Origin: Sphingomonadales bacterium
GTDB taxonomy: Bacteria; Pseudomonadota; Alphaproteobacteria; Sphingomonadales; Kordiimonadaceae
Length of the DNA: 64,000 nucleotides
Assembly: GCA_011088215.1 (NCBI GenBank)
Contig: JAALKD010000007.1
Coordinates: forward strand, 1 to 64,000
Direction of reading: 5' to 3'
Below are positions 9,806 to 38,300 of the stretch, piece after piece; position 1 is the first letter of the stretch, and each line of letters opens with the position of its first letter. Made by a program: the position numbers and the translations under genes. The notes under the pieces were generated by a model. The model was given only the letters and a program-made list of their open reading frames with translations, was not told the DNA's origin and did no database searches.

Positions 9806-12019
9806 TTATCGTTGGTCACGGCTTTGTGTTTTTTTTCTTTCGCGCCTGGCCATGAAGACCAAACCTGGTGCAAGCAACCAAAGTCCGTAAGGCTCGGGAA
9901 CAGAAACCAATCGTATTATGGCTGTGTCAACGCTGGTCAAAACAAAGTCGCCGGGCAAGAACAGACTACCTCCGGTAACCATATTGACGGTCTGATCACT
10001 TCCAATATTGCCATCATACCGAACTTGTAGCGTGACCTGATAATTGCCTGCTGAGTCAAATGATGTTCCGTCACCAGAATTTAGCAACAATGTTTGGCCG
10101 GTTCCTAGTATTTGGTCGCCTAAAACCCAAGTTAAACTAAAGGCGCCAGTGTCAACAAGGTTACAGAATGCCTCGGCTTCAAAACTGGATCCACAGCCAT
10201 CAAGCGAAAAGGATTCGCCCAGTGGAATTGTATCATAAACTCCAGCTTCAGCGAGCAAAACTGGTTCAGGTTCCGGCTCTGGTTTTGGCTCAGGGGTTGG
10301 CTCAGGAGTAGGCTCAGGAGTGGGCTCAGGTGCCGCACCAAGCGAATCTGGCGTATTATCATCAGGCGCCGCAGCAGCCTCAGGCTCATTGGATACCGGC
10401 TCAGGCTCGGGGTCAGGCTCTGGTTCAGGGTCCGGATCAGGTTCTGGCTCAGGCTCAGGGCTTGGCTCGGACTCGGCCTCTGGTTCAGCTGTAGGGGTTA
10501 TTGCCAGCGCTTCTTCAGTTGGTGAACCATTAGCGCCATCAATAAAAGCTGTAACAGGATCAATGATAGGGGCATCCAGTCCCAAAATTTCTTCCGCTGA
10601 CTGCTGGGCAGCAGGAGCAACGCGTTCAATAAATTCAGCAATTTCCTCCGCCAGCTCCTGTTCAATACTGAGGTCCGGTTCAGGATAGATGATAACCGCG
10701 GTTACATAAGTTTCTTGGCCGCCAAGCTGACGGAAGTTGATCCGCAGCGTACCATCGGTAACTTCGGCCCGGGTAACCAGCATGTGGCCTGTAGAAGCTC
10801 CACCGCCGCCGCCGCCTGTCGCCTGAGCAAAGGGGCTGGTATCAGCAATCATGCCAACGGAGCTTTGTGTTGTCATGCCGGCATAAGCACCAGGTGTAAC
10901 AGCAGCATCGATACCAGACATGGAGTGCATAACTGGCACGAGTTCAGTTGAGGCGCTGGCGGTAAGAGTATAAATAGAATCCTGATCGTTTGATGATATC
11001 AAATCATCTGCACTGCTATTCGACCCCGACAATCTATCAACGCCTTCGGTCGCCAGCTTCATAACAGGAACTAAGTCATCAGTGGCTCTGGCATCAACCA
11101 TATTTACTTTGGCGCCGTTGCGCTTTAAGTCCACACCGAAAGGGTAAAGTGGGGCCACTCCCCGTGGTGGTGGTGCAGTCAGGATAACCACGCGGTACTT
11201 GCCGTTTTTAAGCCCGTTTGCAACGAACTCTTCAATATTTCGAACGCCTTTAGATAAAATAGAGGGGCCTTGGTTTGCCGCCTCGTTGTTCATCTGATTG
11301 CCTTGAAGCATTTCGCTGTCTGCTGACACTCGAATGAAATCTTCGAATGGCTTGTCGCTTTTGGGACCAAGGTCCCAGCCAGTTGCACCTTCCTGGAGCT
11401 CAAAACCTTCATCCAAAACAAACGGTGCCATGAATGCGGTCCAGTGAGTTCTGGCGCCAGCTTCGATAATCAGGTTGGCAGCATCAGATATTGTTGCCAA
11501 ATCATAATCGCCAGCGGCATCTTCAAGTCTAAAAAGGAGCGCATCCATACGCTGCTTCAAAATTTCCGTATCACCCATGGCCTGATTCAGATATGACTGG
11601 ACAACCTGAAAGCCCCATTCATCAACGGCCAGTGCGCCTTCAATGGCTTCATCCAGCGTTACGGTCGGGAATGTTTCAATGCGCGCCTCTACTGGCGTGC
11701 GTATCAGTTCAGCGCTGCGTGTCCCGGTAAGATAAAAGTCCGCGTCAGCATTATCATCTGAATCAGCGGCTGATGCCAGGGTTGGGCGCGCAATTTTAAG
11801 TCGACGTATGCCAGGAATTTCCACAGGAGGAGGAGTCCGCATGCGATAAGTAGCAGGCGGCGGCAGCAAGCCACGGCTTAAAACCGGGGGAATAGTATCA
11901 TCTAAAACGATAAGATCTGGGGCCTGATTAGAGTAGGCCCCATATAACAATGTGCCGGTAGCAACAGCTGTGCCGGTCAACAGAGTCGAAATTATCAATG
12001 TCTTGTTGCTAGAAGCCAT
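9806..12019 (-). CDS. PEP-CTERM sorting-signal surface protein with PKD-like domain
   Basis: Probable exosortase A substrate of 737 residues. The C-terminus ends in a [10 protein letters not shown] motif, a hydrophobic stretch and an Arg-rich tail ([13 protein letters not shown]), which is the PEP-CTERM tripartite signal. The frame extends to a GTG at 12121, but the ATG at 12019 puts a normal hydrophobic signal or anchor segment ([18 protein letters not shown]) at residues 7-24, so I chose it. The middle is a large unassigned globular region with a Gly-rich patch. A long Pro/Glu/Asp linker follows ([13 protein letters not shown] type, about bases 10260-10480), then a PKD-like beta domain before the sorting signal. 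The linker PEP triplets are low complexity, not sorting signals. It lies beside the XrtA locus, on the opposite strand. Confidence 0.88.
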
Positions 12020-12140
12020 GACGTTTTGAGGCCTTACCTGCTTAAAACACAAAAAATACACCCACAAGCATTGTAGAAAACCGGAGTGTTCATCCTCGAC
12101 CCATCTGCCAAACCATAACACAAGAATATCGGGTTTCAGC

Positions 12141-28227: not shown

Positions 28228-29472
28228 ATGGCGCGTATTCTTTTTCTCGCACATCGGATTCCCTATCCGCCCAATAAAGGGGACAAAATCCGTTCGTGGC
28301 ATTTCCTGGAATATTTGATGGAAAGGCACGAAATTCATCTCGGTTTTTTCATTGATGATCCCGCTGACCTAGAACATGTGGATTTTCTACAGAAACGATC
28401 AGCAAGCCTTCATTTCAGTTTTGCATCACCACTAAAACAAAAATTGTTTTCCCTAAAAGGTTTTCTGACCGGTACGTCATTGACAGAAAACGCATACCCA
28501 TCCTCTGGAATGCGTAGTTTCGTGGCCAATTTGATCGATACCAACCAGGTTGATGCTGTGTTTTTGTATTCGGCGGCCACATATCGCTTCTTGCCTAAAA
28601 ACATGAAGGGCGTTCCGATTATTACCGATTTTGTCGACGTCGATTCAGCAAAGTGGGAAGCCTACGCAGCCAACAATAGTTGGCCGATGAGCTTAATTTT
28701 TCGTCGTGAAGGCGCGAAACTCGCGGCGTTTGAAGCTCATGTTGCCGACCGTAGTTTAGCAAGCGTGTTGGTCAGCAAGGATGAAGCGGCGTTGATGCGT
28801 AACCGCCTATCTAACCGGCAGCAGAACGCTGGCAAGATTTTGGGTATTACCAACGGCGTCAACGCGAAAGCGTTCTCGCCGGAGAAATATTCCACAACTT
28901 CGACCAAGGGCAGATTAATTTTTACCGGCGCAATGGACTATGCTCCAAACATTGAAGCTGTTGTTTGGTTCGTGGAAAATGTATTCCATCGAGTAAAACT
29001 CGAGCATCCGCATGTTGAACTTGTGATAGCCGGAAAACCAGTTGCGCCAGATGTTCAAAGACTCGACGCTCATGACGGTGTCAACGTGATAGGCGCGGTA
29101 GATGACATGGCGGAAACCATTGCAGGTGCATCCATTGTTATTGCGCCGTTACTTACGGCTAGAGGTATCCAAAATAAGGTTTTGGAAGGTATGGCGATGG
29201 CGAAACCTGTCATTGCCACGCGTGCCGCTAACGAGGGCATTAATGCTCCTGACAGAGCAGCAATATGGATCGCTAATGATCCAGATGGTTTTGCTGAAGC
29301 CGTTGCCGCTTTGCTGGAGCCAACGGCTGCAAAGCAGCTTGGGGTTGCCGCCAGAAACTTCGTTATGGATAACTTTAGTTGGAGTAAAAGTTGCAGAGCG
29401 ATAGAAGCGTTGCTTATCGATGCCTCTGATCACGCTACCCAGCCTCGGCAGGGAGGTCGGATTGACCTTTAA
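28228..29472 (+). CDS. XrtA-associated glycosyltransferase (stp1, TIGR03087-like)
   Basis: A 414-residue GT-B glycosyltransferase, opening MARILFLAHRIPYPPNKGDK and then IRSWHFLEYL, which is diagnostic of the exosortase-linked stp1 family. The C-domain shows FTGAMDYAPNIEAVVWFVEN, HVELVIAGKPV and GIQNKVLEGMAMAKPVIAT. It acts on the cytoplasmic side to extend the repeat unit. The end of the gene overlaps the exosortase start (TTG at 29462) by 11 bases, indicating translational coupling. Confidence 0.92.
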   Translation: MARILFLAHRIPYPPNKGDKIRSWHFLEYLMERHEIHLGFFIDDPADLEHVDFLQKRSASLHFSFASPLKQKLFSLKGFLTGTSLTENAYPSSGMRSFVANLIDTNQVDAVFLYSAATYRFLPKNMKGVPIITDFVDVDSAKWEAYAANNSWPMSLIFRREGAKLAAFEAHVADRSLASVLVSKDEAALMRNRLSNRQQNAGKILGITNGVNAKAFSPEKYSTTSTKGRLIFTGAMDYAPNIEAVVWFVENVFHRVKLEHPHVELVIAGKPVAPDVQRLDAHDGVNVIGAVDDMAETIAGASIVIAPLLTARGIQNKVLEGMAMAKPVIATRAANEGINAPDRAAIWIANDPDGFAEAVAALLEPTAAKQLGVAARNFVMDNFSWSKSCRAIEALLIDASDHATQPRQGGRIDL

Positions 29473-30982
29473 CAGACATATTGGGCTGTTCGCCATTGCA
29501 TCACTGGCTTTACTGATTTCCTGGCGTGGAACGGTTCAGCATATGGCAGATATTGTCTGGTCAGTGGACGTATTTTCTCATGGTTTGTTGGTTCCGTTTG
29601 TTAGTGCGGCCTTGATCTGGGCCCGGCGCGGTATTTTGCAGACAATTGTGCCACGGTTTTCATATTTGGGTGCAGCTATTGTGCTGGCTGCAAGCGCTTT
29701 GTGGTTGTCGGGCGAATTGATCGATGTTGCACTCTTTCGCCACTTGGGATTGGTCACCGCCATAAATGGACTGGTCATAACGTTTTTTGGTTTGCAGTTT
29801 TACCGAGCGGTCTTGTTTGCCATGTTGTTTCTTTTTCTGGCAATTCCATTCGGATACGAGCTTGTTGGCCCTTTACAAACGATGACGGCAAACCTGGTTA
29901 TTGGGACGCTTGAGCTCGTGGGTGCAACCTATAAAGCAGACGGTGTACTGATTGAACTATCCAGCGGAATGTATGAAGTCGCGGAAGCCTGTGCCGGCGT
30001 CAAATTCTTTTTCACTAGTCTGGTTACTGGGGTTTTGCTAGCGCACCTTGTGTTCGAAAGTTGGGGTCGCCGGCTATTCATTCTGATCGTCAGTGCAATG
30101 TTACCCATTGCGGCTAATGCACTGCGAGTGCTCGGTATTCTGGCTATTGCCGAAATGACCGATCAGAGCTTTGCAAAAGATGTTGATCATATAGTTTATG
30201 GTTGGGTTTTCCTGTCGATTGTTTTGTTTACCTTGATTGCCTTTGCATACAGAATTTCCGACAGAGAGGCATCTAAAGCACCGACCCTGGCCGAAAATCA
30301 ATTCACTGAAGGTGCCAATCAAAACGTCTTCGGAGTGATCGCCGTTGCGATGATTCCAACCCTTGTAACATTCGTATTACCGCAGACAAATTCTCTGGCA
30401 TATCGGGAGGGCGGCGTGCAAATCGAACCCCTTCTTAAGCAGGCACCCGCGGGTTATCGTGTTTTGCCTCAGGCCGCCTCAATCTCGCCCCCCAATTTCC
30501 TGAATGCTGACGTCATGCGATCAACTATCCTGCGTCGGAACGACCACGTTTTTTTGGCCAGTTACGCACGGGTTGCCTCTTTGCATGCTGGTAGTCGCCT
30601 TTTTCAACCGGGTAATACACTTGTGGGCAATAAATGGTCGGAAATGCGGGGCCTAGTCACTCGCTCTTATGAATTTTGTGACATAGCATTTACCGAGCGT
30701 ATCTTTAGGCGCGGTGATCGACGAATTGTAACCTGGAGTGTTTATAGCATAAACGGCGAGATTGTTACGTCTGGCCTAACGGAGAAAATGGTGACAGCGG
30801 CGGTGCGAATTATGCGTAAGCCTTCATCGGGTGAAATATTGACTCTCAGTGGCTTGGTCGATTCAGATGCCAACGATATTCGCGAAGTTTTTTCTGATTT
30901 TTTGTCGACTTTTCCGCCAGATAGGCTTTTATTGGCCCTTGGGGGCGGTGAACTAGGGGACAGCATTAAATGTGCGGGATAA
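29462..30982 (+). CDS. xrtA: Exosortase A fused to EpsI domain
   Basis: Membrane cysteine protease/transpeptidase that processes PEP-CTERM signals. I chose TTG 29462, with GGGAGG five bases upstream, giving 506 residues; an ATG at 29420 has no such site. About eight membrane helices fill residues 5-270. The catalytic residues are in place: Cys177 in EACAGVKFF, Arg222 in ANALRVLG and His243 in DVDHIVYGW. After residue 280 comes a soluble EpsI-type domain (TIGR02914) with GYRVLPQAAS and GNKWSEMRG. Fusion of exosortase A and EpsI is common. The downstream amidotransferase overlaps by 13 bases. Confidence 0.95.
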   Translation: MTFNRHIGLFAIASLALLISWRGTVQHMADIVWSVDVFSHGLLVPFVSAALIWARRGILQTIVPRFSYLGAAIVLAASALWLSGELIDVALFRHLGLVTAINGLVITFFGLQFYRAVLFAMLFLFLAIPFGYELVGPLQTMTANLVIGTLELVGATYKADGVLIELSSGMYEVAEACAGVKFFFTSLVTGVLLAHLVFESWGRRLFILIVSAMLPIAANALRVLGILAIAEMTDQSFAKDVDHIVYGWVFLSIVLFTLIAFAYRISDREASKAPTLAENQFTEGANQNVFGVIAVAMIPTLVTFVLPQTNSLAYREGGVQIEPLLKQAPAGYRVLPQAASISPPNFLNADVMRSTILRRNDHVFLASYARVASLHAGSRLFQPGNTLVGNKWSEMRGLVTRSYEFCDIAFTERIFRRGDRRIVTWSVYSINGEIVTSGLTEKMVTAAVRIMRKPSSGEILTLSGLVDSDANDIREVFSDFLSTFPPDRLLLALGGGELGDSIKCAG

Positions 30983-32868
30983 CTGGTTGGATGACGCGCG
31001 ACGGCAGTCCTGTCGAGGAGCGCCTGTTCAAACATATGACAGACAAGATTAATCACCGTGGGCCTGATGGGGAAGGCTATTTCATCGGTGGTGATGTCGC
31101 CCTTGGCCATAAACGGCTGTCGATTATTGACATCGCTGGCGGGCATCAACCCATGTATAGCCAGGGCCGGGAAGTTGTACTTTCCTACAACGGTGAAATA
31201 TATAATTTTCAGTCGCTGCGACGTGAACTCGAGGGACTGGGGCATCGTTTTGTCACTCAATCTGACACTGAGGTTCTTCTTAACAGCTATATGCAGTGGG
31301 GCGAGGCCTGTGTAGAACGATTACGTGGTATGTTCGCTTTCGCCGTGTGGGATGGCCCAAAGCAAAAGCTTTTCCTTGCGCGCGACCGGCTTGGCATAAA
31401 ACCTTTATTTTATAGCTTTTTACCTGATGGAGGCTTTGTCTTTGCCTCTGAAATGAAGGTCTTGCTTGCGCATCCAAAAATCTCTCGCAAACTGCGAGTT
31501 GACGCTCTAGAGGATTACTTGATGCTTGGCTACGTGCCTGATCCCAAGTCAATCGTCGATGGCATAATGAAACTGGAGCCGGCAAACAGCCTGTCGCTGG
31601 AAAAAGGGTCGACGCAGGCACGCGTCAGTTGCTATTGGCAGCCCGGTGTTGGGCGAACAGGCGTGTCGGTTTCTCGGTCAGAAGACTTGGTGGCCCGCCT
31701 TGAAGATGCGGTGAAAATGCGCATGATCGCAGACGTTCCGTTGGGCGCTTTTTTGTCGGGGGGAGTTGATTCAAGCGCTGTCGTTGGTCTTATGTCAAAG
31801 CTGGGAACAGAACCGGTAGAGACATGCGCCATAGGGTCAGAAGACCCAAACTATGACGAAAGTGGGTATGCGCAAATTGTTGCCGACAAGTTTGGAACAA
31901 GCCATCGGTGGCGATTGGTGTCAGCCAACGATCGTTCATTAATTGACAAAATGGTTGAGATTTACGACGAACCTTTCGCGGACCCATCGGCCTTACCAAC
32001 ATACCGAGTTTGCGGATTGGCGCGAGAGAAGGTAAAGGTTGCTCTCTCCGGTGATGGGGGTGATGAACTGTTTGCTGGCTATAGGCGGCACAGGTTCCAT
32101 ATGGCTGAGGAGTCGTTTCGTGGCAGATTGCCTATGTTTGCTAGGCGCGCATTGTTTGGCCCCTTAGCCAAATTATATCCAAAATTGGACCGTGCTCCGC
32201 AGTTTTTGAGGGCGAAGTCGACATTCGAAGCCCTGTCTCGAACATCCGCGCAAGCATACTGTCAAAGCGTCAGTCGAACGCCCGACCGTGACAGAAAACG
32301 TTGGCATTCTAGGCGAATGAGAAAATTGCTGGCTGGATACCATCCCCACGACCGCTTTAGTGAGCTTGCTGATGAGGTGAAGGGCGCTGACCCGCTTTCT
32401 GTCATTCAATACATCGATATGAAAACTTATCTATCGGGTGATATTCTTACAAAAGTTGACCGGGCTAGTATGGCACATAGCCTCGAGGTGCGTGTTCCTA
32501 TATTGGATCATAAGTTTGTCGAATGGGGTCTGCGCGTACCGCCACAGGTACGCATAGTTGACGGTGAAGGTAAAGCTGTTTTCAAGGCCGCCCTGCGAGG
32601 GTTTTTGCCTGACAACATCCTATATCGAACCAAAAAGGGTTTCGATGTTCCCACCATAAGTTGGCTGCGAAACGAACTGGCCGATGAAACGATATCACTG
32701 GGGGAAAGCGAACTCTTCGCTGATAGCGGACTTTTTAACATGCAAGGTATTCAGCAGATGGCTGAGGAGCATGTGCTAGGGTCGCGTGATCATCACACGA
32801 GCCTATGGGCGCTTATTATGCTTGAGCGCAGCCTTAAAAAGCTGAATTTGGAAATGCCAGGCGGTTAA
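30970..32868 (+). CDS. XrtA-associated asparagine synthetase-like amidotransferase
   Basis: A 632-residue AsnB-type enzyme (TIGR03108 group). Met1-Cys2 (MCGITGWMTRDGS) supplies the N-terminal glutaminase nucleophile, and RGPDGEGYF and GHKRLSIID belong to the same domain. The synthetase half has the PP-loop FLSGGVDSSAVVG (near residue 260), ALSGDGGDELFAGYRRH and ILTKVDRASMAHSLEVRVP. It probably amidates an acidic sugar or other group in the polymer rather than making free asparagine, judging by its locus. It is the last gene of the plus-strand block; phoB converges 16 bases on. Confidence 0.92.
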   Translation: MCGITGWMTRDGSPVEERLFKHMTDKINHRGPDGEGYFIGGDVALGHKRLSIIDIAGGHQPMYSQGREVVLSYNGEIYNFQSLRRELEGLGHRFVTQSDTEVLLNSYMQWGEACVERLRGMFAFAVWDGPKQKLFLARDRLGIKPLFYSFLPDGGFVFASEMKVLLAHPKISRKLRVDALEDYLMLGYVPDPKSIVDGIMKLEPANSLSLEKGSTQARVSCYWQPGVGRTGVSVSRSEDLVARLEDAVKMRMIADVPLGAFLSGGVDSSAVVGLMSKLGTEPVETCAIGSEDPNYDESGYAQIVADKFGTSHRWRLVSANDRSLIDKMVEIYDEPFADPSALPTYRVCGLAREKVKVALSGDGGDELFAGYRRHRFHMAEESFRGRLPMFARRALFGPLAKLYPKLDRAPQFLRAKSTFEALSRTSAQAYCQSVSRTPDRDRKRWHSRRMRKLLAGYHPHDRFSELADEVKGADPLSVIQYIDMKTYLSGDILTKVDRASMAHSLEVRVPILDHKFVEWGLRVPPQVRIVDGEGKAVFKAALRGFLPDNILYRTKKGFDVPTISWLRNELADETISLGESELFADSGLFNMQGIQQMAEEHVLGSRDHHTSLWALIMLERSLKKLNLEMPGG

Positions 32869-32884
32869 AACAACCAGCCAGATG

Positions 32885-33571
32885 TTAACGTTTGTTGTCC
32901 AGCGAATAACCGGCTGAGCGAACTGTACGAATATAGTCCTCTCCACTGGCATTCATAGCTTTGCGCAAGCGCCGAATATGAACATCGACGGTTCGGGCTT
33001 CCACATATACATTGTGGCCCCATACAGCGTCTAAAAGCTGCTCACGAGAAAAGACACGGCCAGGGTTTTCCATGAAATGGCGCAACAATCGGTATTCGGT
33101 TGGGCCCAATTGGACTGCACTACCATTTCTGGTTACTCGGTGAGAGACATTGTCCAGATGTATGTCTTCAAATGTCAGGTCTTCGCCGGCGAGGGCAGGG
33201 CGCACGCGTCTCAATACTGCTTGGATGCGCGCAATTAACTCTTTTGGGGAAAAAGGTTTTACAACGTAATCGTCGGCACCCATTTCCAAGCCTCGAACCC
33301 GATCAGGTTCATCGGCGCGTGCCGTCAGCATAATGATGGGCACATTGGCCGTGTCGGCATTCCGGCGTAACTGCCGGCAAATCTCGAGTCCGGAAAGGTT
33401 TGGCAACATCCAGTCCAACAATATTACGTCCGGAGTATCCTGCATTGCCACATAGAGACCGTCTTCACCGTCCGCCACTGTCTCAATAGCATAGTTGGCA
33501 CGCTCCAAGTTGTAACGAACCAGCTCTGTGATATTCAGGTCGTCTTCTACCAGAAGTACTTTGGTCTTCAC
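32885..33571 (-). CDS. phoB: Phosphate regulon response regulator PhoB
   Basis: A 228-residue OmpR/PhoB-type regulator. The receiver domain has the acidic pocket LLVEDD, phospho-acceptor Asp53 in VILLDWMLP, and DDYVVKPFSP with the conserved Lys. The C-terminal winged helix ends with HNVYVEARTVDVHIRRLRKA and RSAGYSLD, as in PhoB. The start is GTG with AAGGAA upstream. It lies downstream of phoR on the same strand with a 144-base spacer. This inverts the usual phoB-phoR order, and no pst/phoU genes are in the window. Confidence 0.9.
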   Translation of the reverse strand: MKTKVLLVEDDLNITELVRYNLERANYAIETVADGEDGLYVAMQDTPDVILLDWMLPNLSGLEICRQLRRNADTANVPIIMLTARADEPDRVRGLEMGADDYVVKPFSPKELIARIQAVLRRVRPALAGEDLTFEDIHLDNVSHRVTRNGSAVQLGPTEYRLLRHFMENPGRVFSREQLLDAVWGHNVYVEARTVDVHIRRLRKAMNASGEDYIRTVRSAGYSLDNKR

Positions 33572-33715
33572 TTAACGGTTCCTTTTTCGCCGCTTTTTAT
33601 TGCGGTCACTTACCGAACATAGCCTATTCTATACAGACCTAATGTTACAGTTTAATTGCGCCTAATTCGCATTGTTGCTGTCTTGTTGCATCCTATAACC
33701 CGTTATTTTTACTGT

Positions 33716-35008
33716 TTAATTTTGGGCGGACGCCTTTAACGTAAAACTAAATACTGTACCTTTGCCTACTTGGCTTTTTACATTTAGCAAACTGTCATGG
33801 CGCAATAAAATGTGTTTTACGATAGCAAGACCAAGTCCCGTACCACCCATTTTACGAGACCGAGCATCGTCAACTCGGTAAAATCTTTCTGTAAGTCTGG
33901 CTAAATGTTCCTCTAAAATGCCTGGACCTTCGTCGCGAATAGATATTGTAACTGCGCTATTATCAGCATTCGCTACGGCACCAACAAACACAGTCGTGTC
34001 CCGATCAGCATATTTAGCGGCATTTACCGACAGGTTGATTAAAACCTGCATCAATTGATCAGCATCAGCCACAACCTTTTCCGCCCCCGCCGCGATATTT
34101 GTTTCAAACTCAATGTTTCGTTCTGCACCAATTGAAGAAGCGGTCAAAACAATGCTGTTGATCATAGCAGGGAGATTGACTTCACTGTCCGGTGATTCGT
34201 GCCGAGACATCTCAATTCGAGAAAGCGATAGCAGATCGTCGATCAATCGGACCATACGTTCGGTTTCTGTTTGCATTATTCCTAAAAACCGCTCGCGAGC
34301 AGGCGTGTCATCCTTGGCCGGCCCCTGCAAGGTTTCGATGAATCCAATCACAGAAGAGAGCGGCGTACGCAGTTCATGGCTGGCGTTCGCCACAAAATCA
34401 ACACGCATCTGTTCTGTTTGTAACATGCTGGTCACCTCGTAGAAGAAGGCCATGGCCTGAGTGGGTACATCTTTCGAACCTGTTCCGGACACCCTCGAAA
34501 TTGTGACATCAAACGTTCGCTTCTGGCTGTTGGTGAAACGGATCACACCTGCATGTTTTTTACCATCTACAAATATCTTCTGGATTGCATCAACTATTCT
34601 TGCTTGCTGCAAGTGCAAATAAACATCATTACCAACAACATCGCCGCCCAGCAGTTCCTCAGCTGCGTGGTTAGCAAAAGATACTCCGTGATCCTCGCCG
34701 ATAATCAATATGGGAAGTGGAACCGCATGTAACGTTTTCGCGCGGACAGATTTTATTGCGCCTCTTTGACGGCCAAAGACCATAGAGCTTTCTTTTTTTT
34801 CGCCGAGTTTTTGGCCAGTGCTGTCGGTATCAGTGCGATCAATTTGCAGCAGTAGGCCACTTGTCACTGAAAATATAACCACTGCTGCCAGCGCTGAAAT
34901 CAGGTCCAAAGACCAAAAAAAAGCAAATAGAGCCAACAGAACGACAATAACCATTCGTCCGGTTAATAAGCTGAATAGTTTTGTGCGGGGTTTGTTTGAC
35001 TGGTTCAT
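33716..35008 (-). CDS. phoR: Phosphate regulon sensor histidine kinase PhoR
   Basis: A 430-residue histidine kinase. Two closely spaced membrane helices (VIVVLLALFAFFWSLDLIS and ALAAVVIFSVTSGLLL) lie at residues 19-55 with almost no periplasmic loop, as in PhoR. A PAS domain follows (VPLPILIIGEDHGVSFANHAA). Next come HisKA with the phospho-His in VANASHELRTPLSSVIGFIE, and HATPase with NLSVNAAKYA, DEGPGILEEH and GGTGLGLAIVKH. PhoR/PhoB senses phosphate shortage. Its divergent partner across a 220-base spacer is the Asp-rich cassette, so shared regulation is possible. Confidence 0.9.
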   Translation of the reverse strand: MNQSNKPRTKLFSLLTGRMVIVVLLALFAFFWSLDLISALAAVVIFSVTSGLLLQIDRTDTDSTGQKLGEKKESSMVFGRQRGAIKSVRAKTLHAVPLPILIIGEDHGVSFANHAAEELLGGDVVGNDVYLHLQQARIVDAIQKIFVDGKKHAGVIRFTNSQKRTFDVTISRVSGTGSKDVPTQAMAFFYEVTSMLQTEQMRVDFVANASHELRTPLSSVIGFIETLQGPAKDDTPARERFLGIMQTETERMVRLIDDLLSLSRIEMSRHESPDSEVNLPAMINSIVLTASSIGAERNIEFETNIAAGAEKVVADADQLMQVLINLSVNAAKYADRDTTVFVGAVANADNSAVTISIRDEGPGILEEHLARLTERFYRVDDARSRKMGGTGLGLAIVKHILLRHDSLLNVKSQVGKGTVFSFTLKASAQN

Positions 35009-35228: not shown

Positions 35229-35984
35229 GTGACCGAAAAACCAATAGTGCCTGACACCTCAGATAGTGAATCAGAGACCTCTGAAGACAGCAGAATTGCG
35301 GAACGCCGCCAACTATTGATGTTGGGGGCTGCTGGTCTTCCCATGATGCTTACGCTGAAAGCGTCAGCGCAGCAGGCCCTTGTTTCGCAGTTAACCTGTT
35401 CGATCACATTGCCTAAGCGAGTAAGAATTCTGGTAGACTGTGATGGGCGTGCGTGGGTGGGCACAAGGAATATCCAATACAAGAACGGTAAAGGCTTTAA
35501 AGTCGCTGATATTGTTAAATTTAAAGACAAAGCGACCTATGCATTTCCTGCTGGCGACGTGCCAAATTACTGGTTACCTGATAATTGTCCGATTGAAGAA
35601 TGCAGTAACGACGACGACGATGATGATGATGATTTTGATTATGAAACAGCATCAGCAGAATTGGATGATTTGATGCGCACATCTTTGCCATCGCAGGCAG
35701 ATGGTATTGCGCTGGCCTCGATACGTATGGGGGACGATGATGATGACGATGACTGCGACGAGGATTGGATCGACTCAGGGTATGCTTTCTATAAGTTGAG
35801 TAAGAACTCAACTATTCTACCTGTTGACCACACCAGCGGTACCGGATGGAGCCCGCAAGCCAACAAGCAAGGATTGTTTATTGCCTTGTCTCTGGTTTAT
35901 GAAAGCAGGCACGGTGATGCTCCTGGCTGGCCGGGAATTTCCTGTATCGTTTCCATCATAAATTACTTCGGCACTCAAAATTAA
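35229..35984 (+). CDS. Asp-rich, Tat-leader-like protein heading the HprK-related kinase cassette
   Basis: Unrecognised protein. In-frame starts are TTG 35172, GTG 35205 and GTG 35229, all with weak ribosome-binding sites; I took 35229 (251 residues). After an acidic N-terminal 27 residues comes a twin-arginine-like leader, ERRQLLMLGAAGLPMMLTLK, with SAQQ as a likely cleavage region. The mature part has six cysteines, including a CPIEEC pair. It has two poly-Asp runs, eight at residues 128-135 and seven at 169-175, the second followed by Cys-Asp-Glu-Asp. The runs are encoded by GAC/GAT repeats. The C-terminal part looks globular (PGWPGISCIVSIINYFG). It sits 32 bases before the PqqD-like gene, so it is probably the client of the cassette. 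Metal or Ca2+ binding by the Asp runs is inference. Confidence 0.7.
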   Translation: MTEKPIVPDTSDSESETSEDSRIAERRQLLMLGAAGLPMMLTLKASAQQALVSQLTCSITLPKRVRILVDCDGRAWVGTRNIQYKNGKGFKVADIVKFKDKATYAFPAGDVPNYWLPDNCPIEECSNDDDDDDDDFDYETASAELDDLMRTSLPSQADGIALASIRMGDDDDDDDCDEDWIDSGYAFYKLSKNSTILPVDHTSGTGWSPQANKQGLFIALSLVYESRHGDAPGWPGISCIVSIINYFGTQN

Positions 35985-36016
35985 CGTAAAGCGCCTATTG
36001 TCGGCGAAGTTTTGAT

Positions 36017-36325
36017 ATGGCCGCAGCCCCGCCTACAACCAGTGAAAAATGGTCGTCTGATTCTCACCAGTATTTGGCTGTAGAGTATGATGATACGTTT
36101 TTGGTTTACTTCCGCCCGTCGGGAGAAACTCATTTTTTGAATTTTCTCTCTTACGGCATGGTTCACGCGGTGTCATCTGGACCTTTGTCAGAAGAAGAAA
36201 TATTGGCCCGGATGAGGACAGATTTTTCCCTGACTGCGGAAGAACTACCTGAAACGCTTGTTGCTACAACTCTAAGCGAGTTAGACCAAGCTGGCTTGAT
36301 TACGGCTTTGGACGCAGGAACATGA
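36017..36325 (+). CDS. PqqD-family protein of the HprK-related kinase A system
   Basis: A 102-residue PqqD-like protein. PqqD folds (RRE domains) bind leader peptides and hand them to modifying enzymes. Here the pattern is SDSHQYLAVEYDDTFLVYFR, then THFLNFLSYGMVHAV and ELPETLVATTLSELDQAGLI, with the C-terminal winged helix typical of the family. It overlaps the kinase gene by 4 bases (ATGA), so the two are translationally coupled. This gene, an HprK-like kinase and a PF14907 nucleotidyltransferase form the cassette named HPr-rel-A in TIGRFAMs (from memory). Confidence 0.82.
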   Translation: MAAAPPTTSEKWSSDSHQYLAVEYDDTFLVYFRPSGETHFLNFLSYGMVHAVSSGPLSEEEILARMRTDFSLTAEELPETLVATTLSELDQAGLITALDAGT

Positions 36326-37254
36326 GCGCGCCATCTAATGTTGCCAGTTATGACCGTCGTGACTTACGCGCAGCGCTGCGTAACGGTTCATTCACACTGC
36401 ACCTCGGGCCGTTTAGTCACCTTGTGTCTGGGGCGAGCGAGCCCTTGCTTGATTTCCTGAGCGATACATACCGCGACTATTCTGTAGAGTTAACCCCCAG
36501 CGATGTTACTGATGTTCTGCTTCGGCTGGAGGCTCCAAATATTTTGCGCCGATTTATCCGGCGGCAAATAACGCCCAATCCAGGTTTTAAAGTTCCAGCG
36601 GTGCCATTGCCGCTAAGTATGTCGCCTCTAGCCTTTGAAATGGGACTGAATCTTTCTGTTGCGCTTAAATGCTGCCGATTTATCAACGTGCATGCAGGCG
36701 TGGTTGCAGATAAGGACGGGGCGATTGTCATGAGTGCAGCCTCCGGTGGTGGCAAAAGCACGCTGACGGCAGCGTTGTTACAGCACGGCTACCGTCTATT
36801 CTCCGATGAGTTTGCACTACTTGGACTGGACCAACCGTTATTGCACCCGTATCCACGTCCTATATCCCTGAAGCAGGAAACGATTCCTGTGGTTCGGGAT
36901 ATGGTCGGCGACAACTGGATCAGTAAAGTCGTGACAGGAACTCCGAAGGGCGACATCGCTTATTATCGGGCAAGGGCAAGTGATTTAGCGCAGGACAAAA
37001 CATCCGCGAAAGCCAAACTGGTCTTGTTTCCCAAGTTTGAAAAAGGCGTCCGGCCTATTGCGCGTCAGTTAAATCCAGCAGAAGCAATCATGCGCCTTGT
37101 GCCAGCATCAACTAACTACTCCCTACTTGGTGAACCTGCTTTTCACGCAATCACTGGGTTGTTGAAAAACATACGCGCTTACGAGATTACTTATGGATCG
37201 ACAATAGATAGTTTGCGCCTTGTTGAACAAATAACCGATCAGAAATTAGTTTGA
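36322..37254 (+). CDS. HprK-related kinase A
   Basis: A 310-residue relative of HPr serine kinase/phosphorylase. It lacks the long N-terminal domain of true HprK. The kinase core has VHAGVVAD (residues 123-130), Walker A SAASGGGKST (138-147), and YRLFSDEFALLGL (157-169), which holds the acidic SDE that aligns with HprK catalytic/metal residues. The next conserved part is HPYPRPISLKQETIPVVRDM. No HPr or PTS genes are nearby, so HPr is not an obvious substrate. HprK-like kinases in lasso-peptide clusters phosphorylate the precursor peptide, which is one model for this locus. The gene overlaps both neighbours. Confidence 0.88.
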   Translation: MSAPSNVASYDRRDLRAALRNGSFTLHLGPFSHLVSGASEPLLDFLSDTYRDYSVELTPSDVTDVLLRLEAPNILRRFIRRQITPNPGFKVPAVPLPLSMSPLAFEMGLNLSVALKCCRFINVHAGVVADKDGAIVMSAASGGGKSTLTAALLQHGYRLFSDEFALLGLDQPLLHPYPRPISLKQETIPVVRDMVGDNWISKVVTGTPKGDIAYYRARASDLAQDKTSAKAKLVLFPKFEKGVRPIARQLNPAEAIMRLVPASTNYSLLGEPAFHAITGLLKNIRAYEITYGSTIDSLRLVEQITDQKLV

Positions 37255-38300
37255 TGCAGAAGTCAGCTCTCAAACAGATAGTAGGTATTGCTCCGTTACC
37301 GGAAAAGGTAATGGACCGTATCGAACTTGTTCGAAATGCCGACGCAAATCACATTCTTGGTCAAATGGCGTCAGCTAATACAAGCGATGTGAGCGATCGA
37401 TTGCACGACATCTTCAGGAATGCGCTGCTGCGTGCAGGGCATGATCACATAATGTTGCAGTTTGAGATCAACCGACTAGAGCATGCTCTCTCAGGAACTG
37501 GCATAGAGCCTGTTGTTTTGAAGGGCGGTGCTTATGTAGCACGAGGAAAAAAGGCGGCGGGCGGCAGACGGGTCAGCGACCTGGATATTCTGGTCGCTGA
37601 AGATGAATTGGAAGAAGTGGAAACGCGATTGAAAGAGGCTGGTTGGTCGCCTGACGAAGCGACGGACAACGAATATGACCAAGCCTACTACCGAGAGCAC
37701 ATGCACGAGCTGCCGCCACTGCGCCACGCCAAACGAGGCACAATTATCGACGTACACCACCGGCTTCTTCCCAAGACAGCGAGATCTAATGTTGATGTAG
37801 CATTGATGCAGCAATCGGCAATGCGCATTGCAGAGAATCCGGTGAGAACTTTTGACGATGTGGATATGTTCGTTCACTCAGCGGTGCATGTTTTCGCGGA
37901 TGGTGCCATAGATACGCCAGCCCGCAGTTTGGTTGAGTTGTATTTGCTATATATTGAATTATCATCTGACGACGCCTTGCGCCTTAAAACTCGTGCCAAA
38001 GCCGTTGGTGCGATAAAGGCTGTATCAACAGCATTGTGGGCAATCGATGAATTCTTCGATGAAGACAACGCCCTTGCGCTTTCGAATGAAGCACTAGCAG
38101 AAAAGCCAAATTTCATCTTGCGATGGGCTATTGCTACAAAGACGTTGGAGCGACCGTCCGCACCGCTGGCAAAACTACTTCTTTACATCCGCAGTCACTA
38201 TTTGAGGATGCCGCTGCGTCTGCTTGTTCCCCACCTGGCGCGTAAAGCAGTTGCATGGCGACCAACTACAAAAAAACCAATCGAGTTACCCTTTCCTTAA
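37254..38300 (+). CDS. PF14907-type nucleotidyltransferase of the HprK-related cassette
   Basis: A 348-residue nucleotidyltransferase-fold protein. The start ATG at 37254 overlaps the kinase stop (TGATG). Core motifs are GIEPVVLKGGAYV, then GGRRVSDLDILVAEDELEEV with the metal-binding Asp pair DLD, then IIDVHHRLLP, the third strand. The remainder is helical. Family members are found beside HprK-like kinases in the HPr-rel-A cassette and in lasso-peptide clusters, where they can add nucleotide groups to a phosphorylated peptide. Which substrate is used here is unknown. Confidence 0.85.
   Translation: MQKSALKQIVGIAPLPEKVMDRIELVRNADANHILGQMASANTSDVSDRLHDIFRNALLRAGHDHIMLQFEINRLEHALSGTGIEPVVLKGGAYVARGKKAAGGRRVSDLDILVAEDELEEVETRLKEAGWSPDEATDNEYDQAYYREHMHELPPLRHAKRGTIIDVHHRLLPKTARSNVDVALMQQSAMRIAENPVRTFDDVDMFVHSAVHVFADGAIDTPARSLVELYLLYIELSSDDALRLKTRAKAVGAIKAVSTALWAIDEFFDEDNALALSNEALAEKPNFILRWAIATKTLERPSAPLAKLLLYIRSHYLRMPLRLLVPHLARKAVAWRPTTKKPIELPFP

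Follow-up and report, generated by a model that had tools for sequence, protein, structure and literature searches.

The cassette lies on the forward strand of a 64,000-nucleotide stretch of DNA from a Sphingomonadales bacterium (hereafter, the window) and consists of four tightly packed genes, with a 32-base gap after the first and overlaps of 4 bases and 1 base between the others (Table 1). All four open reading frames are confirmed, with a TTG at 37251 as an alternative start for the nucleotidyltransferase, and the domains named in an earlier sequence-only reading all score above their curated cut-offs. The second product reaches 52.2 bits against PqqD_rel_X (TIGR04353, cut-off 35) and the third 227.7 bits against HprK_rel_A (TIGR04352, cut-off 200), which places both in the HPr-rel-A system, while the fourth reaches 132.4 bits against NTP_transf_5 (PF14907, cut-off 31.2). 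The same layout is found in dozens of genera, so it is no chance arrangement. A defence-system search gave no match, and one false cassette (L099) was discarded from the comparison.

Table 1. Features of the cassette and its surroundings, in positions of the window.
Feature	Position	Strand	Remarks
XrtA exosortase	29420..30982	+	246 bits, cut-off 208; context, outside the cassette
XrtA/PEP-CTERM system amidotransferase (TIGR03108), AsnB-like	30970..32868	+	860 bits; adjoins the cassette in other lineages
PhoR-type sensor kinase	33716..35008	-	Divergent from the client gene; same layout in most Sphingomonad-type loci
Client gene	35229..35984	+	251 aa, GTG start, precursor; no Pfam/NCBIfam family; homologues upstream of PqqD in related loci
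Leader segment AERRQLLMLGAAGLPMMLTLKASAQQ	35298..35375	+	Twin-Arg, Pro, T-L, AxA signal-peptidase-like site; leader-only profile
Cys57	35397..35399	+	Invariant in the alphaproteobacterial client alignment
First Asp run (D8)	35610..35633	+	Hypervariable middle; length varies among relatives
Second Asp run (D7)	35733..35753	+	Length varies among relatives
C-terminal motif S-C-I-V-S, residues 238-242	35940..35954	+	Cys239 and Ser242 invariant in the alphaproteobacterial alignment (A1); Ser242 is the proposed modification site
PqqD-like / RRE-type peptide chaperone (TIGR04353)	36017..36325	+	Profile match
HprK-related kinase A (TIGR04352)	36322..37254	+	Invariant H124, K145, D162, E163
PF14907 nucleotidyltransferase	37254..38300	+	Invariant D109xD111, D166, H168, H169

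The first product, here called the client, fits its earlier description: the leader carries RR, there are six Cys, and the two Asp runs are 8 and 7 residues long. It matches nothing above cut-off in Pfam and NCBIfam. Between the window and its closest relative, whose client is 91% identical, dN/dS for the client gene is 0.056, below the values for its three neighbours in the cassette (0.08-0.11), and the gene is thus real and under strong purifying selection.

The sequence-only reading had singled out this protein as the natural client of the enzymes and proposed examining what precedes the PqqD-like gene in homologous loci. In the class, 11 of 385 genomes score above cut-off for TIGR04352; in the phylum, 52 of 398 do so for TIGR04353; and in the order, the kinase is present in 71 of 120. 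Our locus set, on which the PqqD, kinase and nucleotidyltransferase profiles were rebuilt, comprises 40 regions and two close relatives, the latter being the same contigs as G819 and G807 and not independent of them. In 40 of the 41 readable loci, the window included, PqqD is directly preceded by the gene for a protein that combines an RR motif with a hydrophobic stretch and, in most cases, an A-x-A. The exception is G573, in which the client lies 162 kb from the cassette, and two relatives likewise carry the client elsewhere; such retention of an unlinked client alongside the kinase argues for function. Across the 120 genomes of the order, 69 have both kinase and client, 4 the kinase alone, 1 the client alone and 46 neither (P 3e-27, a value that overstates independence as the genomes are related). 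The client-alone genome is 78% complete, with its client at a contig end, while G747, counted as kinase-alone, has a divergent client beside the kinase after all (L153). The proposed check thus comes out in favour of a partnership between client and cassette.

The clients share a leader. We ran a leader-only profile of 26 residues on 25 genomes, ten cassette-bearing and 15 cassette-free relatives, and obtained 16 full-length matches (weakest E 8e-6), all of them to clients encoded in the ten cassette-bearing genomes. The profile had been trained on some of these sequences, but the clients of G782, G784, G761 and G746 lay outside the alignment. The remaining matches were partial only, with E 1e-3 or worse, and nothing below E 0.17 was found in the 15 cassette-free relatives. 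Cassette-free genomes of this kind possess ordinary Tat substrates. Since the profile finds clients but nothing in these relatives, the leader is, as judged by its profile, cassette-specific and more than a generic Tat signal. The client leader combines RRx[LFI], a hydrophobic stretch and A-x-A, although the pattern used to search for clients itself demanded RR, and TatC is encoded in the genome; export of the client probably proceeds through Tat.

Two other features that had been taken as defining the client, its six Cys and its Asp runs, do not survive comparison. The number of Cys is lineage-specific, and the set of six is absent from most clients of other families. The runs lie in a hypervariable middle region and their lengths differ even between close relatives; D/E runs of up to 12 residues are found repeatedly in the window's family and again in G747, whereas most other clients have short ones or none. 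Poly-Asp as a recognition element was ruled out because most clients have no such runs, which resemble a lineage-specific and perhaps ion-binding tract. In the G747 client (L153:2783-3544), which is not from the window's family, long Asp tracts alternate with His/Gly-rich stretches in a repeat-like manner. The RR-type leader and the likeness of the acidic tracts to ion-binding matrix sequence would fit a client that is merely a Tat-exported matrix protein, co-inherited with enzymes that act on another substrate. We regard this as very improbable, as the leader profile sets clients apart from ordinary signal peptides, and the two genes, client and kinase, remain paired in genomes where they are unlinked.

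Outside the leader, the invariant positions of the alphaproteobacterial client alignment are essentially Cys57, Gly236, Cys239 and Ser242, and one further invariant Pro is alignment-dependent. Within the last 60 residues, 73 of 80 non-redundant clients carry [STN]-C-x-x-S, with S or T nearly always at the first position and the motif usually 2-10 residues before the C-terminus. By comparison, Ser occurs at +3 of other client Cys in only 16 of 232 cases (7%). In our alignments, what clients have in common is thus the cassette-specific leader and, in most, two Cys and a C-terminal [ST]CxxS. The window's genome encodes a second client (G000:C115:15637-16188, listed also as L115:6563-7189) that has no acidic runs and no cassette nearby, and seven relatives carry the same kind of second gene. 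This gene adjoins RNA polymerase sigma-like and YCII-like genes, in a synteny found in most of the relatives carrying it. Tandem clients are present in four genomes. Between duplicated clients, conservation is 48-88% in the leader and 54-92% in the tail, generally higher than in the middle (29-65%), as would be expected if one enzyme set reads the leader and acts at the tail. In having, next to its RRE/PqqD protein, a precursor whose leader is conserved and whose core varies, the cassette is laid out like RiPP pathways with a discrete RRE.

The putative catalytic residues of both enzymes are intact: H124, K145, D162 and E163 of the kinase are invariant in 40/40 sequences, and R105, D109, D111, D166, H168 and H169 of the nucleotidyltransferase in 36/36. 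Searched against solved structures, the kinase profile finds HPr kinases (E 1.8e-4); the protein itself reaches only 11.7 bits against Pfam Hpr_kinase_C, for which the gathering score is 33.3. Among the cassette kinases, compared with one another, the residue after D162 is Glu in 40/40 sequences; the motif of paeninodin-type lasso kinases is His-Lys-Asp-Asp. HprK carries an Asp-Asp pair where the cassette kinase has Asp-Glu. For the PqqD-like profile, the nearest natural solved relative is the lasso RRE TfuB1 (E 0.012), followed by a weak match to a lasso PqqD-family chaperone (E 0.21), the best PDB matches being de novo designs that we set aside as chance. No relative of the nucleotidyltransferase profile was found among solved structures, and structure prediction of the kinase and of the client from three sequences gave no usable model (mean pLDDT 31). 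In some lineages, a TPR-sulfotransferase gene sits between the kinase and nucleotidyltransferase genes, or occurs where no nucleotidyltransferase was found. In three loci (L094:9135-10832, L096:8935-10713 and L101:9155-10846), the gene encodes a TPR protein with a Sulfotransfer_3 domain and is coupled to the kinase gene. Such genes suggest a sulfated variant of the client, and their insertion suggests that the tailoring enzymes are exchangeable among cassettes.

The likeness to lasso-peptide tailoring drawn in the sequence-only reading extends to the kinase, the nucleotidyltransferase and the RRE-type protein, all of which resemble the lasso enzyme set. In lasso pathways, PadeK and ThcoK phosphorylate the precursor at a C-terminal Ser, and a hexose is attached to the phosphate by PsmN (PMC9266682). 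An HprK-like kinase also occurs together with an RRE and an NTP transferase in the LPP pathways of Bacillota, which often lie at capsular polysaccharide loci; there LppK, in a pathway with the RRE LppB, phosphorylates Ser3 of the core (PMC13381572). From these kinase pathways, we propose an order of recruitment, Ser242 phosphorylation, extension and export. The client would be made with an N-terminal leader that doubles as a twin-arginine-type signal peptide; the PqqD-like protein would bind this leader and hand the client to the HprK-related kinase, which would phosphorylate the Ser conserved at the end of the tail motif [ST]-C-x-x-S. The PF14907 enzyme would then add a nucleotide to the Ser phosphate, or build a sugar-phosphate on it. 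The decorated client would be exported, probably by Tat, with cleavage after A-x-A; a Cys57-Cys239 disulfide may form, and the exported protein probably serves the exopolysaccharide made by XrtA loci. Taken as a whole, we hold it to be reasonably probable that the cassette is a leader-guided modification system in which PqqD recruits the client, the kinase phosphorylates Ser242, the nucleotidyltransferase extends the product and the client leaves the cell. Within this scheme, we infer the binding of the leader by PqqD, the site and type of modification, the order of steps, Tat export and the surface role. The nucleotidyltransferase step is weak, as LppN showed no visible product or activity in its published heterologous system (PMC13381572).

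The seven clients without the tail motif (L075, L076, L077, L079, L080, L083 and L089, out of 80) mean that Ser242 cannot be a universal site. These clients have different cores, several of them showing an S-P-x-x-W and A-x-L-N pattern, and they group together on the kinase tree; client type tracks that tree, with 0 of 500 shuffles equally clustered. The client of the Vibrio alfacsensis plasmid pVa1 (L156) has the motif-less core type and a leader of the same sort; its cassette is plasmid-borne, with no visible exopolysaccharide genes in the stretch and no PqqD gene listed. That the motif-less clients belong to cassettes still equipped with kinase and nucleotidyltransferase, and that cassettes often lie inside exopolysaccharide loci, would fit an explanation in which the conserved Ser is not the target and the Cys pair is structural, with the enzymes modifying another residue, or a client-carried small molecule or glycan precursor, during exopolysaccharide assembly. 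We consider this rather unlikely, since the tail Ser is retained despite great divergence of the core and, for the HprK-like RiPP kinases that have been characterised, the target is a fixed Ser of the precursor (PMC9266682, PMC13381572).

The surroundings of the cassette bear on the role of the modified client. In the window, XrtA and the amidotransferase are encoded a few kb upstream, and the association with exosortase A that the sequence-only reading took from family naming is borne out in the order: an XrtA-type exosortase (170 bits or more) is present in 67 of 73 kinase-positive genomes versus 21 of 47 kinase-negative ones (P 2e-8, among related genomes). Where both genes are on one contig, they are 4-15 kb apart in 35 of 44 genomes, while nine Sphingomonad-type genomes have them far apart and yet both present. 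Across the phylum, XrtA fails to reach cut-off in 35 of 52 PqqD-positive genomes; the link to exosortase is thus strong without being strict, and outside the order many cassettes sit among exopolysaccharide genes. In eight loci (L078, L081, L082, L096, L098 and L100-L102), an AsnB-like TIGR03108-type gene lies just 3' of the nucleotidyltransferase, which recalls the AsnB-like cyclase of lasso clusters; we did not adopt it as a cassette member, as the family is named for XrtA systems generally. The window also encodes, on the minus strand (9806-12121), a Pro/Glu-rich protein with a PEP-CTERM-like tail that scores 14.7 bits against TIGR02595 (cut-off 16).

Next to the client gene and divergent from it, the window's genus and the Sphingomonads carry a PhoR-type kinase region (32885-35008 in the window; also in L064-L071 and L155); in one Sphingomonas record (L155), pst genes follow it. 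The cassette may be under phosphate control; an intergenic comparison upstream of the client gene gave no convincing regulatory site. Together with the match of the kinase profile to HPr kinase structures, the PhoR layout would suit a regulatory switch, with the kinase acting like HPr kinase to signal the state of phosphate or carbon in concert with PhoR, and with the client as a sensor partner in the periplasm. This we consider improbable, because other lineages have no adjacent PhoR, and a cassette-specific leader with a PqqD-type protein would be unexpected for an HPr switch.

Leader-guided modification of an exported protein leads to a broader proposal, which we advance tentatively, as falling somewhat short of an even chance. 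One leader would serve both as PqqD tag and as export signal, and whole proteins would be fitted, before their export, with a nucleotide or sugar linked through phosphate to a C-terminal Ser, in a RiPP-like manner in Pseudomonadota, with several clients served in trans and possibly anchoring exosortase-linked exopolysaccharide. The comparison gives the HPr-rel-A enzymes, named but functionless in the literature we found, a concrete family of substrates, with a residue and a recognition element as candidates. If the proposal is true, leader-guided kinase/nucleotidyltransferase chemistry extends from small peptides to exported proteins and is linked to exosortase-associated exopolysaccharide, about whose protein partners little is known. 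We found no paper joining HPr-rel-A enzymes with exosortase, in a search largely confined to open-access journal papers. What appears undescribed is the client family, with its leader signature and tail motif, as well as the trans clients and the genome-wide co-occurrence; the enzymes already have NCBI names.

Among known systems, the cassette shares with the NCBI-defined HPr-rel-A system both families above cut-off and the gene order of annotated records, but that name covers the enzymes only, and the clients, which match no NCBIfam or Pfam family, are annotated as hypothetical. HPr kinase/phosphorylase shares the structure-profile match and the His, P-loop Lys and Asp, whereas the cassette kinase lies below the Pfam HprK cut-off, has Asp-Glu rather than Asp-Asp, and travels with PqqD and a client. 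Like the LPP RiPPs (LppA/K/B/S/D/N), the cassette has a precursor, a discrete RRE, an HprK-like kinase, an NTP transferase and a setting in polysaccharide loci; unlike them, its clients are whole proteins (~100-300 aa) with a signal-peptide-like leader, its hosts are Pseudomonadota, and no SipW-like signal peptidase or MsbA-like transporter was recognised among the window's open reading frames between XrtA and GltX. The paeninodin and pseudomycoidin lasso peptides (PadeK, ThcoK, PsmK, PsmN) likewise have an HprK-like kinase acting on a C-terminal Ser, as proposed for the cassette, together with a nucleotidyltransferase and an RRE protein. The cassette client, however, is far too long and has no lasso core; the leader peptidase B2 (Transglut_core3, PF13471) has no match in the whole genome, and the AsnB-like gene at 30970 scores 258 on the lasso cyclase model, for which the cut-off is 525. 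Because defining features of both lasso peptides and LPPs were looked for and not found in these searches, the cassette is best read as a relative, at the scale of whole proteins, of the RiPP pathways with HprK kinase and NTP transferase that produce paeninodin-type lasso peptides and LPPs.
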